The notes beneath the pieces are model-generated. The model was given only the letters and a program-made list of their open reading frames with translations, was not told the origin of the DNA and ran no database searches. The position numbers and the translations under genes were made by a program. Positions 41,517 to 47,364 of a DNA stretch of 64,000 nt are shown here, one piece after another; position 1 is the first letter of the stretch; each line of letters opens with the position of its first letter. Source of the stretch: Oscillospiraceae bacterium (GTDB lineage: Bacteria; Bacillota; Clostridia; Oscillospirales; Acutalibacteraceae); NCBI GenBank assembly GCA_902792905.1, contig CADBBH010000005.1:1-64000 (forward strand). Direction: 5' to 3'.

Positions 41517-44500
41517 ATGAAAAAGAGGTTCAGGAAAACTCTGGCGCTGCTGCTTGCAGCCCTGATGATTGCCGGGCTTGTGCCGGGGTTCTCACTCTCC
41601 GCTTTCGCGGACAGCACAGATGATTCTCCTGTCAACTATGATTATCCTGTCATCGCCGCGGACAGTGAGGCAGAGGTAACCTTGGATAACGGGGAGAGGG
41701 CTTATTTCAAATTTGTCCCCGAAAAGACGGATTACTACGCTTTTTACTCAACCGCTGAAAACATGGATACATATGGCTATATCTATCTGGTCAATCCTGC
41801 AGAGGCGGGCGCTGTTGCTAACCTTGCCAATGACGACGGCGGAATCGGAAACAACTTCCGTATAGAATATGTTCTTGAGGCGGAAACCGTTTATTATCTC
41901 GGAGCAGGATTCTGCGGCAGCGGTTATTCCGGCACTTATACAGTAAAACTTGAAACCCTTCATGAAAATGACGGGTGGGGTGAGGAGGATATCGCCGTTC
42001 AGCCCACCTGCACGGCAGAGGGCAGCGCGAGTGTGGTCTGTAAGCACTGCAACGAGACTTACTCCGTTCCCATCGAGAAGATTCCTCATACGGATGAGAA
42101 CGAGGACGGAATCTGCGATGTCTGCGAAGAGGTATTCTGCCACTATATCACCGAAGGTCAGAATTACACAGCCGGATATGCTGCGGGAGAGAAATACGAG
42201 CTTCGCTTCAAGTGCCTTGTGACAGGGGACTATAAACTTACAGATAATTCAAACTATTACAATCGTTATTTCCTTGATCCCGACGGAAACCGGTTTTATG
42301 AGAGTTGGAACGGAGTATACTATTATTATGCATTGGAAGAGGGAAAAACCTACTCTCTGATTTATGAATCCCCCAACTATGAAAGCTCTATAGATGTTAC
42401 AATCAATCATTATCATTCAGACGCGGATGATGACATGGATTGCGATATCTGCGGTCAGGTTTACCGCTTCGCAGTTGAGGAGGATAAATTATCCGAATAT
42501 ACCGTTCCTGCCGGAGAGATGATTGAGCTGCTCTATACACCCGAAGTGAGCGGAGAATACCGTGTCACCTGCACATACGGAGAAAGCGGCTCCTGCTGGA
42601 GCTCCAGCTTATTAAATCCCGAAGGCGAATCCTTATACGGCAACTATAACGCTTATGATTTTGAAGCGGGAAAAACATACAGCAGGTTTCTCTTTAACGG
42701 CGATGAAGAAGATGATACCATCTCAACTCTCTTTATCCATAAGCATATTGACTCAAACGGCGACGGCGCCTGCGATAAATGCGAAAAGCAGATTCTGAAG
42801 GCGATAAATGTTGACGAGGAAACCGAGATTACCATCCCCGCCGGTGAGAATATGAGACTGTCATTCACTCCGTCAAAAACCGGCAAATACAGGATTAAAA
42901 GCCCGAACAACGCAGTGGCTTACGCATTATATGACAGTGCCGGAAACTCAATATATACTTATGGAGAAATAAACCTTGATGCCGGAACGACATACTATGC
43001 TGAAATTTCAAATAATTACTCGCGTGAGTGCACTTTCAGCTTCACGGTTGCCCATGCCCATGTGGATGCGGACGGCGACGGTGTCTGTGATCTCTGCGAA
43101 GAGCAGTTCGCATCCGTAATAGCAGAGCATGAGGTGGCGGAGCTGCAGATGGACGCAGGCGATGAAGGCCTGGCCATATTCACCTGCCCGAGGTCCGGCA
43201 AATACTATTTCTGGTATTCAAGCAGAAACGGCAGCGGCAATTTCAGCAGTATCACTGATTCAGACGGCGGTTACGTTACTAATAACGGCAACAATTCTTA
43301 CACTCTTACAGAAGGCAAAAAATATTTTGCAAAATTCTACGCTTACGATTCCGGCACAACTTATGTGTGCGCCTTTGCTCATGTTCATGCCGATACCGAC
43401 GGCGACTGTGTCTGCGATATCTGTGAAGAAACAGTTTTCACCGAGCTTACCGAAGGCGTTTCGGCAAAAATCAGCATAGCCAAAGGCGATTATGCAATCG
43501 CAGTTATCAAGCCGTCAGCATCCGGTGAATATTCTATCAACTACAGCGGCAATGTCAGCACGGATCTGACCAGAGCCGACGGCGGCTATGTGGGTTACGG
43601 CCAGAACGGCAGAATACTGACCGCCGGCGAAACATATTATTATAACCTGCGAAGCTATAATTTGAAAGCTGAGAACTGCAGCGCAATATTCAGTCATGTT
43701 CACAAGGATTCCGATTCCGACCATAAGTGCGATATCTGCGGCGAGGCATTTGAATACACCATCATTGAAGATCAGCCGCTCGAGCTTACTCTCGGCTATA
43801 TGGAGACCGCAAGGGTTATATTTGAATGCGAAAGAACCGGAAAATACATAATCCGGACAGATAGTTTAAGCTACGGCAGCGTTTACTGCGACGGCCAATA
43901 TGTCAGCAACGACTCCAACAGCAGATACAGCTTCACAGCCGGCAAGGTTTATGAATTCACAGTCACCGGATACAACACAAGCGGTCCGAAGAACGGCACT
44001 GTATTGCTTAAGCACTGCCATGTCGATGCAGACAATGATATGCTCTGCGATATCTGCGAAATAAAATACCGCTTTACGGCAACGCTTGATGAGAAACTCA
44101 GTTTTGAAGTTCCGGCAGGCGAGCAATATGAGGTTCTCTTCACACCCGAGGCCGACGGCACGTATTCTTTCGAAAACTCTTTCAGCAGCGGCAGCGTTTA
44201 TCAGGGCAACAATTATGTTTCCGGCGACTGGGATTCTTATAATAACAGCTCAGTCTATAACCTCAAGGCCGGCAAAACTTATACTTATGTATTATACACC
44301 GAGTCTGTGGATTTACCGATTAGCATAACCGTCAGACATGCCCACAGCGGACCCGAGACCGTTATCCTCGCGCCAGGCATCGCTTCGGACGGCTTCGGTT
44401 ATATAGTCTGCAAAGACTGCGGAGAAACCATATACGGCATAATTCAGAACAGAGCCAATTCTTCAAGCGAGGGCGAGACCGATGAGTTGCGCTATGAAGT

Positions 44501-46154
44501 ATATACAAAGGGAAGCAAAAAAGAAATCAGAATCACCGGTGTTAAACAGCCCTGCCCCGAAAACCTTGTAATTCCTTCTGAAATCAACGGAATACCGGTA
44601 ACCTCGGTAAATAGTTATTTTGCTGAAATGGGAACCCAAAATCTCAAGAGCGTTACACTTCCGGATACCCTGGTTTCAATCGGCAACGGCGCATTCCTTT
44701 TCTCCGGCATTGAGTCTGTTACAATTCCCGACAGCGTAAAGGTCATCGGCGAGATGGCATTCGCATTCTGCAACAATCTCAAAGAAGTGGAACTCGGCAC
44801 CGGCGTTGTCTATATCGGAAAAGACGCTTTCGCCGCGACACTCAGCGACGAAGATCGCGAGATGCTCGAAATCATGATTCCGTTTGAGAAGCAGATGATT
44901 GAAAAAGAATTACAGGAATACTTTGAATATTTGTCCGAGGCATTCGGCACCGAAATCACAAGCTGGGATCAGCTTCTTGAAGCAGCCGAAGCCAATCCCG
45001 ATGTACTCTCTCCCGATGAGATTCAGGATTTGATGTATGAAGTATCAATGACCGAAACGATGATGGAAATGTATCAGCAGATCCTTGATATCGAAGGTTC
45101 ATCGATTGAAACCATCGTTTACGGCGGCAGCGAAGAGGAATTTGAAGAAATAATCATCGCTCCGGGCAATGAGATTTTTGAGACGGCTGACCTTTTCTAT
45201 AACGGAGCCGTGCTCCACACCGCGACCTTAAAGGCCGACGGCGAAGTAATCGGCACAGTCAAATTCGCAGAGGGACAGAAGTCCATTGATCTTCCCGAAG
45301 TTCCCGAGAAAGAGGGCTATACCGGCTCCTGGCCCGAGTATTCGCTCGGCACCGAGGATATAACAATCGAGGCCGTTTATAAAATCAACAGCTATTACGC
45401 AGTCTATAAAGACGGCGAATCCACCTGGATGACAGCCCAGATGGAATATGGTTCACCTCTTCTCAGCCCCGAGAACAATCCCGAAAAAGAAGGCTATGAA
45501 TTCGGCGGCTGGCTTGATGCCGACGGCAAAACGCCCGGGGATTATGATGGAATGCCCGCGAAGGATCTGACATTTGACGCGGTCTGGATTGCGAAGACTT
45601 ATACCGTAACCTTCAATACCGACGGCGGCAGTGAAATCGCACCTATCAATGTTGCATACGGCGCTCCCGTTCCCGCACCTGCAGCCCCGACCAAGGAAGG
45701 CTTCGTATTCGACGGCTGGTCACCCGCCCTTCCCGAAACGATGCCCGCCAATAATATAACCGTGACCGCTCAGTGGAGAGTTGCCAATCCGACGGCAGGC
45801 GCAGTTCTTAAAACCGGTTCCGGCAAGACGGTTGACTTCCGCGCGAGCGTGACGGTCATCGCAAAGGCGGAGAATGTTCCCGACGGATACATTGTAGCAA
45901 TCTATGATGCCGACGGAAACGAGCTCGTCAGAGGCGACAAATCCGGCGCGACACACACTGCAAACGAAATGAGAGATGGCAAAACCTTCGTCGCCAAAGT
46001 TATTGATGCGGGCGGAAATGTTCAGTCCGACGCAAACGGCGGCAGGCTCGAAAAGAGCGTTGAAGTCAAGGTCAAGGCCGGCTTCTTTGATAAGATTATC
46101 GCCTTCTTCAGAGGCCTCTTCAGAATCCTTCCCAAGGAAACCATAGAACCGTAA
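41517..46154 (+). CDS. Large secreted surface protein: seven beta-sandwich/metal-linker modules, LRR, B repeats, aromatic tail
   Basis: 1545 residues with signal peptide (cleaved near AFA, residue 31). Residues 45-160 form a PPC-like beta-sandwich. Seven modules of 105-110 residues follow, each joined by a linker of the form HxHxDxDxDxxCDxC at His 191, 300, 410, 515, 624, 729 and 835 (for example HVDADGDGVCDLC). Next come BspA-type LRRs (about 1000-1110), a Glu/Met-rich helical stretch, InlB-type B repeats (YTVTFNTDGGSEI and GFVFDGWSP, about 1235-1420), an Ig-like domain and the C-terminus GFFDKIIAFFRGLFRILPKE. No LPXTG signal or SLH domain is seen. It is probably a cell-surface adhesin or glycan-binding protein. 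Confidence 0.85.
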   Translation: MKKRFRKTLALLLAALMIAGLVPGFSLSAFADSTDDSPVNYDYPVIAADSEAEVTLDNGERAYFKFVPEKTDYYAFYSTAENMDTYGYIYLVNPAEAGAVANLANDDGGIGNNFRIEYVLEAETVYYLGAGFCGSGYSGTYTVKLETLHENDGWGEEDIAVQPTCTAEGSASVVCKHCNETYSVPIEKIPHTDENEDGICDVCEEVFCHYITEGQNYTAGYAAGEKYELRFKCLVTGDYKLTDNSNYYNRYFLDPDGNRFYESWNGVYYYYALEEGKTYSLIYESPNYESSIDVTINHYHSDADDDMDCDICGQVYRFAVEEDKLSEYTVPAGEMIELLYTPEVSGEYRVTCTYGESGSCWSSSLLNPEGESLYGNYNAYDFEAGKTYSRFLFNGDEEDDTISTLFIHKHIDSNGDGACDKCEKQILKAINVDEETEITIPAGENMRLSFTPSKTGKYRIKSPNNAVAYALYDSAGNSIYTYGEINLDAGTTYYAEISNNYSRECTFSFTVAHAHVDADGDGVCDLCEEQFASVIAEHEVAELQMDAGDEGLAIFTCPRSGKYYFWYSSRNGSGNFSSITDSDGGYVTNNGNNSYTLTEGKKYFAKFYAYDSGTTYVCAFAHVHADTDGDCVCDICEETVFTELTEGVSAKISIAKGDYAIAVIKPSASGEYSINYSGNVSTDLTRADGGYVGYGQNGRILTAGETYYYNLRSYNLKAENCSAIFSHVHKDSDSDHKCDICGEAFEYTIIEDQPLELTLGYMETARVIFECERTGKYIIRTDSLSYGSVYCDGQYVSNDSNSRYSFTAGKVYEFTVTGYNTSGPKNGTVLLKHCHVDADNDMLCDICEIKYRFTATLDEKLSFEVPAGEQYEVLFTPEADGTYSFENSFSSGSVYQGNNYVSGDWDSYNNSSVYNLKAGKTYTYVLYTESVDLPISITVRHAHSGPETVILAPGIASDGFGYIVCKDCGETIYGIIQNRANSSSEGETDELRYEVYTKGSKKEIRITGVKQPCPENLVIPSEINGIPVTSVNSYFAEMGTQNLKSVTLPDTLVSIGNGAFLFSGIESVTIPDSVKVIGEMAFAFCNNLKEVELGTGVVYIGKDAFAATLSDEDREMLEIMIPFEKQMIEKELQEYFEYLSEAFGTEITSWDQLLEAAEANPDVLSPDEIQDLMYEVSMTETMMEMYQQILDIEGSSIETIVYGGSEEEFEEIIIAPGNEIFETADLFYNGAVLHTATLKADGEVIGTVKFAEGQKSIDLPEVPEKEGYTGSWPEYSLGTEDITIEAVYKINSYYAVYKDGESTWMTAQMEYGSPLLSPENNPEKEGYEFGGWLDADGKTPGDYDGMPAKDLTFDAVWIAKTYTVTFNTDGGSEIAPINVAYGAPVPAPAAPTKEGFVFDGWSPALPETMPANNITVTAQWRVANPTAGAVLKTGSGKTVDFRASVTVIAKAENVPDGYIVAIYDADGNELVRGDKSGATHTANEMRDGKTFVAKVIDAGGNVQSDANGGRLEKSVEVKVKAGFFDKIIAFFRGLFRILPKETIEP
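42085..44120 (+). repeat. Seven-fold intragenic repeat coding PPC-like domain plus Asp/Cys linker
   Basis: Period 315-330 bp. DNA identity between units is modest, but the linker codons for DxDxDxxCDxC recur seven times. A final degenerate unit (HAHSGPE, near 44335) lacks the Asp and Cys residues. Confidence 0.8.
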
Positions 46155-46853: not shown

Positions 46854-46867
46854 GTTTATATAAAATC

Positions 46868-46895
46868 AAAAGCTCTGTCATCGGACAGAGCTTTT
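46868..46895 (-). terminator. Terminator of the tRNA-Thr transcript
   Basis: Perfect stem AAAAGCTCTGT/ACAGAGCTTTT around CATCGG, directly 3' of the minus-strand tRNA; T-rich on both strands. Confidence 0.85.
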
Positions 46896-46897
46896 AT

Positions 46898-46973
46898 TGG
46901 AGCTACTGGTCGGACTCGAACCGACGGCCTGCGCATTACGAATGCGCTGCTCTACCAACTGAGCCACAGTAGC
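46898..46973 (-). tRNA. tRNA-Thr (anticodon CGT)
   Basis: 76 bases with encoded CCA. Acceptor GCTACTG pairs with CAGTAGC, T as discriminator. D-arm GCTCAGTTGGTAGAGC, anticodon stem GCGCA/TGCGC with loop TTCGTAA (CGT), T-loop GGTTCGAGTCC. It is the only intact copy in the array described at 46974-47312. Confidence 0.95.
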
Positions 46974-47312
46974 ATATAATGATATTCTCTTTTCAACTGC
47001 GGTATGCGCTGCTCTTCCCTCAGAAACATAGTCGCACTGCTCCTCGTAGCGTCGCATTGCTCCTTGTTTCTTCACCTCACCGCCTCGCTGTATCCGCCAC
47101 CGGCGGCGCTTCGGCGGTTCGCCCAACTGAGCCACAGTAGCATAAAATGATATTCTCTTTTCAACTGCGATATGCGCTGCTCTTCCCTCAGAAACATAGT
47201 CGCCTCGCTCGCTTGAAGCGCTTCGCGATTCTCCTTGTTTCTTCACCTCACCGCCTCGCTGTATCCGCCACCGGCGGCGCTTCGGCGGTTCGCCCAACTG
47301 AGCCACAGCAAC
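46974..47312 (-). repeat. Two tandem interrupted copies of the tRNA-Thr 5' half
   Basis: Two units of 168 and 171 bp lie between the promoter and the intact tRNA. Each has tRNA bases 1-19 (47123-47141 exact; 47294-47312 with two changes), an insert of 107 or 110 bp, then tRNA bases 21-32 AGAGCAGCGCAT (47004-47015; 47172-47183), then a spacer CGCAGTTGAAAAGAGAATA. The anticodon and everything after it are absent. The inserts are nearly identical except for a central stretch of about 30 bp. They hold GC-rich inverted repeats (CCGCC...GGCGG). The rest of 47313-47510 is AT-rich and holds only two promoters. Confidence 0.85.
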
Positions 47313-47335
47313 ATTTCTGTTTTCAACGCTTATGT

Positions 47336-47364
47336 ATTATACTTTATATAAAGAGATTTTGCAA
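47336..47364 (-). promoter_or_regulatory. Promoter of the tRNA-Thr array
   Basis: Minus strand TTGCAA (47359-47364), 17-bp spacer, TATAAT (47336-47341). Start is expected near 47329, 17 bases before the first interrupted tRNA copy, so both copies are transcribed as a leader of the real tRNA. Confidence 0.7.

Follow-up and report, generated by a model that had tools for sequence, protein, structure and literature searches.

A small, structured repeat dispersed among Clostridia and its preference for tRNA genes

The tRNA-Thr locus in the window (the whole stretch of 64,000 nucleotides analysed here) holds two copies of a gene-less sequence of approximately 105–120 nt with two conserved hairpins, referred to below as element E. 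It is well supported that E represents a new family of small, structured, dispersed repeats, and its strong preference for tRNA genes is equally well supported. The element is dispersed through an order of gut Clostridia, its structure is conserved, and it has been inserted independently at the same tRNA in different species. E with its tRNA preference is a real and unusual feature, of which mobility is the best reading: it is probably a small, non-autonomous mobile repeat, strongly drawn to tRNA genes, that resides beside a tRNA copy kept in working order.

All parts of the array lie on the minus strand, following one another in the 5'->3' direction as a promoter-like site, unit 1, unit 2, the intact tRNA-Thr(CGT) and a terminator-like hairpin. 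Each unit opens with tRNA-Thr bases 1-19 and continues with a 110- or 107-nt insert, bases 21-32 and a spacer of about 30 nt. In unit 1, bases 1-19 (47294..47312) are identical to those of the intact gene at 17/19 positions in a local alignment, with mismatches at bases 2 and 4. They are followed, after D-loop G18-G19, by the 110-nt insert with its two hairpins, which is E plus the A following it (47184..47293; match to covariance model R1 at 47295-47185, 135.7 bits), by bases 21-32 (47172..47183; 12/12 identical in the local alignment) and by a spacer similar in sequence to the 5' leader region of the tRNA (47142..47171). Unit 2 is built likewise from bases 1-19 (47123..47141; 19/19 identical), E plus the A following it in a 107-nt insert with another central hairpin (47016..47122; R1 match 47124-47017, 123.2 bits), bases 21-32 (47004..47015; 12/12 identical) and a spacer that is also the leader of the intact tRNA-Thr (46974..47003). 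The intact gene (46898..46973) was recognised by ARAGORN and scored 72.1 bits against the Rfam tRNA family. The initial annotation had given this unit make-up correctly throughout, except that it called the 5' part of unit 1 an exact match. It had also put a promoter before the array and a terminator after the tRNA, and this layout was recovered in the form of consensus matches: a promoter-like TTGCAA-17-TATAAT (47336..47364; 10/12 consensus positions) and a terminator-like hairpin with a perfect 12-nt inverted repeat (46867..46896), with 3 matches of each kind in the stretch compared to approximately 1 expected by shuffling. A 142-codon open frame (46878-47306, minus strand) spans both units and the tRNA and is probably an accident of the GC-rich repeats. 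Beside the locus, on the plus strand, lies a 1545-aa open frame (41517-46154) with many repeated H.D.D.DG.CD.C-like motifs.

The window units repeat with a period of 168-171 nt and an identity of 91-94%, and the inserts of unit 1 and unit 2 are 91% identical by blastn. The first ~65 nt and the last ~20 nt are common to both inserts, and the difference, described at the outset as confined to one central segment, lies mainly in the central hairpin. Compared with its counterpart at this locus in another genome (G028), the insert of unit 1 was 99% identical and that of unit 2 only 85%. These values make it unlikely that an element was inserted twice at this locus, one of two models originally offered, whereas the other model, tandem duplication of an already interrupted copy, fits the units. 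The array would thus look like a tandem duplication of one E-bearing unit, with the central hairpin diverging afterwards. The same arrangement, with one to three units, is found at tRNA-Thr in other genomes of the genus, which bears out the claim that it is not due to chance and in practice excludes chance or an assembly artefact.

The fold of the element was assessed with RNAalifold on a MAFFT alignment (A1), which returned two hairpins with compensatory change in 12 of 27 pairs. When 107 distinct rows were used in an alignment fitted to the model, changes on both sides were seen in 18 of the 27 modelled pairs. Standard pairs filled 97.9% of the pair cells in these rows compared to 84.4% in shuffles (0/500 as high), none of five measures was reached by any of the 500 shuffles, and six slid versions all gave lower values. 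The feet of the hairpins also covary by eye, C/T on the left with the inner G/A, and the inner T/G with G/C near the right end. The two-hairpin fold is thus supported by compensatory pairs, and the inserts are foldable, as had been noted from the window alone. In Rfam 15, only the tRNA in the window exceeded the gathering score and the element was left uncovered by any match up to an E-value of 5, which rules out a known Rfam family. Judged by eye, E begins with GG(G/T)CGAA.. and ends with ..TCTGAGGG; these ends are not inverted and only GG is common to both junctions. E thus lacks the terminal inverted repeats and target-site duplication of a classic MITE.

By DNA similarity, the insert was present in 34 of 60 related genomes. 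The genome of the window itself (84.4% complete, 24 contigs) gave two blastn matches to the insert, both in the array, and one further match, weak and diverged, on another contig with R1, which was built from 20 typed copies. R1 matched 40 of the 45 genomes of the genus, with 228 matches in total and up to 38 per genome, and 31 of 295 genomes across the order, the window's own among them. Most of the genomes are fragmented. A broader model, R2, detected remote relatives of E in 87 of the 295 genomes of the order, representing 57 of 149 genera, and in 5 of 398 genomes of a phylum sample, three of the five, including the window's own, belonging to the same order. The exact pattern gave 41 matches in named genomes, all of them uncultured Clostridia (labelled Clostridia, Ruminococcaceae, Clostridiaceae or Oscillospiraceae), and the animals in the titles of these genomes are sheep, goat, reindeer, roe deer, water deer, horse and water buffalo. 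No stretch with the exact pattern was found in viral contigs. An origin from phages or plasmids was rejected, as among the best 20 of 154 phage and the best 20 of 49 plasmid records all but two matched the tRNA part of the query; the exceptions were two unannotated faecal phage contigs (H1 and H2), in which the insert was matched over short stretches amounting to 15% and 13% of the query. The openly licensed literature yielded no account of an element of this type residing in tRNA genes, which does not in itself prove that none exists.

The insertion sites were determined in a genus sample of 134 copies, drawn from those listed among the 228 R1 matches in 45 genomes (136 matches in fetched loci, less three, namely one duplicate place and two low-scoring matches at L026 and L097, plus one overlapping copy from the R1 match list). 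Hosts were assigned by flank rules for the tRNA sense strand only, and were set by hand from the flanks at 13 loci (L014, L015, L026-L030, L111, L115, L139, L149, L159 and L166). Flanks derived from tRNA were found for 51 of the 134 copies, distributed over Ser (18), Thr (14), Asn (9), Pro (6) and Trp (4). The other 83 lie outside recognised tRNA copies, mostly within other dispersed repeats, with at most 4 of them 300 nt or less from a tRNA; 26 were left as 'other'. The second of two tandem E copies in a tRNA-Thr unit (L105, 485-592) was also entered as 'other'. Two other dispersed repeat families, GCCCTCTCC.. and TGTCATCCTG/TGTCATTCCG.., were observed to host E in the genus (L005, L035, L091-L094 and L114, L136, L142, L144, L145, L147, L148, L152, L155).

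When the flanks were aligned locally to 73 distinct intact tRNAs, insertions in the D-loop mapped behind base 18-19 for Thr, Asn and Pro. The Ser insertions were placed in the same manner after approximately base 66 of the 91-nt gene, in the T-stem, and the Asn anticodon insertions after base 39. In a single case followed base by base (L011, 483-590), the occupied D-loop reads ..AGTTGG[E]TAGAGC.. and that of the intact neighbour ..AGTTGGTAGAGC..; the insertion is clean, as the loops differ by E alone, with GG common to both junctions. Since the sites within tRNAs vary, there is no strict site specificity. A test for a preference of E for hairpin-forming targets was negative, and hairpin-forming DNA as its target was rejected. 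In the genus and order searched, E is dispersed and sits in the D-loops of several tRNAs in many species, so that the D-loop home proposed for it in the initial annotation is real but too narrow, T-arm, anticodon-loop and non-tRNA sites being used as well. Measured by the condition set in the initial annotation, the location of most genus copies away from tRNA genes (83/134) speaks against strict D-loop targeting, whereas the order-wide hits (37/59 near a tRNA) do not. E-like matches were also observed inside an apparent protein-coding gene (L248 and L317, G191:C28; YTYDVWG context), indicating that remote relatives may sit in genes as well.

The partial tRNA copies themselves differ between the two sides. 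An inverted piece of the same tRNA was found at the start of 14 of 22 3' partial copies of tRNA-Ser and tRNA-Trp (p<=0.05, uncorrected), and a significant one in 0 of 21 5' partial copies, including those of the window, which suggests that the two sides may arise differently. The motif CCGCAGT in the window was considered as an inverted tRNA piece and rejected, given this absence from the 21 5' units.

An intact tRNA of the same type lies within 700 nt of 37 of the 51 tRNA-hosted genus copies. Several of the 14 copies lacking one are located at contig ends; L015, L111, L115 and L158 are not obviously so. The relative positions are one-sided in the genus sample: D-loop hosts were found upstream of the intact tRNA in 18 cases and downstream in one, and Ser and Trp T-arm hosts downstream in 16 and upstream in none, though these counts are partly non-independent, as inherited copies are included and arrays are counted more than once. 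The expectation that the intact tRNA lies downstream of a D-loop insertion was thereby confirmed in 18 of the 19 D-loop cases where an intact one was found. The sole exception is L141, where a full-length tRNA-Thr interrupted by E in the D-loop lies downstream of an intact tRNA-Thr. For the Asn anticodon hosts, one lies upstream and one downstream. E is mostly 40-110 nt away from the intact copy, and apart from the full-length copy in L141, 5' partial copies end at variable points inside the gene, from approximately tRNA base 29 to 55 and beyond.

The association extends across the order. At the loci fetched with R1, an intact tRNA (Gly, Trp, Pro, Arg, Ser, Leu or Ala) was present within 270 nt of E in 14 of 19, with E occupying, at seven loci, the D-loop of a 5' partial copy that lies upstream (L234, L237, L238, L239, L240, L246 and L249), and downstream in 3' pieces at L232, L236, L244 and L245 and, less clearly, at L231, L235 and L243. 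With R2, the 59 best-scoring hits were considered, leaving out the model-building sequences and the last 3 of 53 regions; several of these hits come from one genome. An intact tRNA lay within 300 nt of 37 of the 59 hits, compared to approximately 1% of random positions, a value obtained by arithmetic from the tRNA density of two genus genomes (30 and 36 tRNAs). For 27 of the 37, the flanks match the adjacent tRNA, which can be Thr, Asn, Leu, Lys, Met, Ser, Pro, Trp or Gly. Among the hits with tRNA-matching flanks, 19 are upstream, every one with 5'-half flanks, and 6 are found downstream on the strand of the tRNA, bases 1-18 being absent from the flanks of all six. In a test applied without a strand rule, 33 of the 37 hits near a tRNA lie on the strand of that tRNA.

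Movement and inheritance are both visible in the comparison of copies. In G019, the copy of E within tRNA-Thr shares 98% identity with copies in unrelated repeats of that genome, compared to at most 88% with the tRNA-Thr copies of other genomes. Among 40 comparable cases, the best copy from the same genome in another host was closer in 12 than the best copy in the same tRNA from another genome; in the other 28, ties included, it was not, indicating that inheritance dominates. The E copies in tRNA-Thr of G028, G003 and unit 1 of the window, for instance, are 96-99% identical and were probably inherited. Parsimony gave a minimum of 24 changes between tRNA and non-tRNA hosts, 9 for Thr and 12 for Ser, based on 129 of the 134 copies and a weak, quick tree from a short alignment. 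The alignment of tRNA-Thr loci of relatives, suggested in the initial annotation, covered 30 of the 43 genomes in which a tRNA match was present. E or a remnant of it was found in an adjacent copy at 10 of the 30 loci (G000, G001, G003, G004, G005, G010, G015, G019, G021 and G060), and the other 20 were free of E beside the tRNA within the stretch read.

A transposase of the Y1 family, the sole enzyme family searched, was considered as the mover of E. Y1_Tnp genes were found in 26 of the 45 genus genomes, but their number did not correlate with the number of E copies (Spearman -0.10, p 0.53), and E was near Y1 at only 1 of 30 Y1 loci examined. At this one locus (L063, G067:C183), the Y1 gene is found downstream of a 3' remnant of tRNA-Trp with E copies or fragments, at a distance of a few hundred nt. 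Y1/RAYT was therefore rejected. No autonomous version of E, or element with E halves as its ends, was seen by eye among the matches listed.

According to the reading favoured here, a mobile repeat beside a working tRNA, the fold of E would be conserved while its stems change by compensatory mutation, and the element would usually insert after GG, mostly past D-loop G18-G19 or in the T-stem and less often in the anticodon loop. It would sit in a partial tRNA copy on the outer side of the intact one, namely a 5' copy upstream if the D-loop is occupied or a 3' copy downstream if the T-arm is, so that the cell retains a working tRNA. E presumably moves as DNA, mobilised in trans by an enzyme, and its insertion would be preceded or accompanied by partial tandem duplication of the outer gene part, because insertion into the sole copy would destroy the tRNA; in the window, an E-bearing unit of this kind may afterwards have been duplicated in tandem. 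As insertion into a sole gene would be lethal, the intact neighbour must have an origin, and both a preceding duplication and copying coupled to the insertion fit.

A possible explanation, plausible if somewhat short of probable, is that ordinary tandem duplication of tRNA ends or whole genes comes first, after which E enters the spare copy and the spare decays. The geometry would follow, since a partial duplicate broken once within the gene is confined to its own side. The complete tRNA-Thr copy with E beside an intact tRNA-Thr at L141 argues for this order of events, as do the copies at L019, L134, L140 and L150, which retain various lengths past the anticodon, and the other inserts that occupy such partial copies too. 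On the other hand, no insert-free partial copy was seen by eye among 127 distinct tRNA loci, a non-random set, and whole-gene duplication alone would not yield ratios of 18:1 and 16:0, though inherited copies inflate these counts.

More tentatively, insertion and copying could be coupled, the same event copying the outer part of the gene and regenerating an intact gene every time, much as integrative elements do, only without genes. The geometry, both in the genus and order-wide, is as regeneration predicts, and the 127 loci yielded 19 flagged partial matches without the E motif (11 upstream, 8 downstream), none of which was a clean duplicate by eye. The flagged matches turned out to be neighbouring tRNA genes (L062, L096, L149, L159, L205 twice, L206, L217 and L236), copies with E missed by the motif (L051, L140 and L244) or an E remnant (L186), and copies with another hairpin-rich insert (L178, L191, L210, L231 and L287 twice). 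However, many of the loci had been fetched for E, short partial copies could miss the score threshold, and clean duplicates may simply vanish by recombination. Partial copies holding other inserts also imply that E is not required, and the end of the partial copy is variable (bases ~29 to 55, and full length in L141). It is possible that E itself regenerates the tRNA. The furthest-reaching version is a shade more doubtful again: E would be a new class specialised on tRNA genes, whose insertion copies the outer gene part and restores the intact gene, making it harmless by design and the site reusable (arrays of up to 3 units), and which has spread through one order on more than 10 tRNA anticodon types.

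The other hairpin-rich inserts were observed in a setting similar to that of E. In the window's own genome, L210 (G000:C13) has, downstream of tRNA-Tyr, a 3' partial tRNA-Tyr with an inverted T-arm piece ahead and an insert different from E. Comparable inserts are found at L191 (Ser), L231 (Gly), L287 (two Ser genes, one in a tandem array) and L178 (Thr), the last being one of the 20 E-free Thr loci, with a 3' partial copy further downstream.

It is unlikely that E together with the tRNA half serves the host as a transcribed leader or trailer governing maturation or expression of the tRNA. The conserved folded structure, the tRNA sense of 33 of the 37 order-wide hits near a tRNA, and the promoter-like and terminator-like sites ahead of and past the array would agree with such a function, but E is patchy at orthologous loci, being absent from 20 of 30 tRNA-Thr loci, is also held by unrelated dispersed repeats, and lies upstream at some tRNAs and downstream at others. 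Less probable still are att scars, units left by tRNA-targeting integrative elements with a tyrosine recombinase and later filled by repeats, for although the geometry is that of tRNA-targeting islands and an E-free tRNA-Thr 3' half at an unrelated place in G019 resembles a scar, the 40-110 nt that mostly separate E from the intact copy leave no room for an island or gene, and the break points vary. This 3' half (L291, G019:C15:5383-5427; bases 32-76) is 100% identical to the tRNA and lies on a contig other than that of the intact gene.

The mobile elements known to exploit tRNA genes in bacteria are, for the most part, large integrase-bearing islands. If the mobile reading is true, an element of approximately 108 nt in D-loops and T-arms would be a miniature bacterial counterpart to the eukaryotic tRNA-targeting elements, and E would lend itself to the question of how an essential RNA gene can be entered by a selfish element while the host survives. 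For annotation, the data carry a warning that E may lie behind partial tRNA calls adjacent to tRNA genes in these genomes.

Integrative elements and islands in tRNA genes are bordered by a partial tRNA copy on one side and an intact one on the other, with sites in the tRNA arms. A unit of E, in contrast, contains no gene and measures about 170 nt in the window. A self-splicing tRNA intron is unlikely, as the E-bearing copies read are partial except for L141 and 37 of 51 have an intact gene next to them. Template-switch events and tandem inversion duplications at quasi-palindromes resemble E in the inverted piece that often starts its tRNA-Ser and tRNA-Trp 3' copies; the 5' copies (0/21) differ, and such events leave a dispersed element with conserved structure unexplained. 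REP and REPIN sequences are, according to the excerpted texts, dispersed hairpin repeats with compensatory stem changes that are thought to be moved in trans by Y1 (RAYT) (PMC3733652, PMC2817692, PMC3116915). E is likewise a dispersed hairpin repeat with compensatory stem changes, but its consensus has no GTAG tag, which those repeats carry at a palindrome end, and no Y1/RAYT gene is linked to it. Rickettsia palindromic elements (RPE) are described in the excerpts of PMC2229807 as folded repeats of 105-146 bp located between and inside genes, and also in the genes for tmRNA and M1 RNA, and the CGTC repeats, in those of PMC3733652, as seemingly lacking a dedicated transposase; insertion into tRNA genes is not mentioned in the excerpts of either paper. 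E resembles both in being small and folded, and its size is close to that of RPE. It differs from them in having no CGTC tag in its consensus and in belonging to an order of Clostridia, where it is concentrated in partial tRNA copies beside intact tRNAs.
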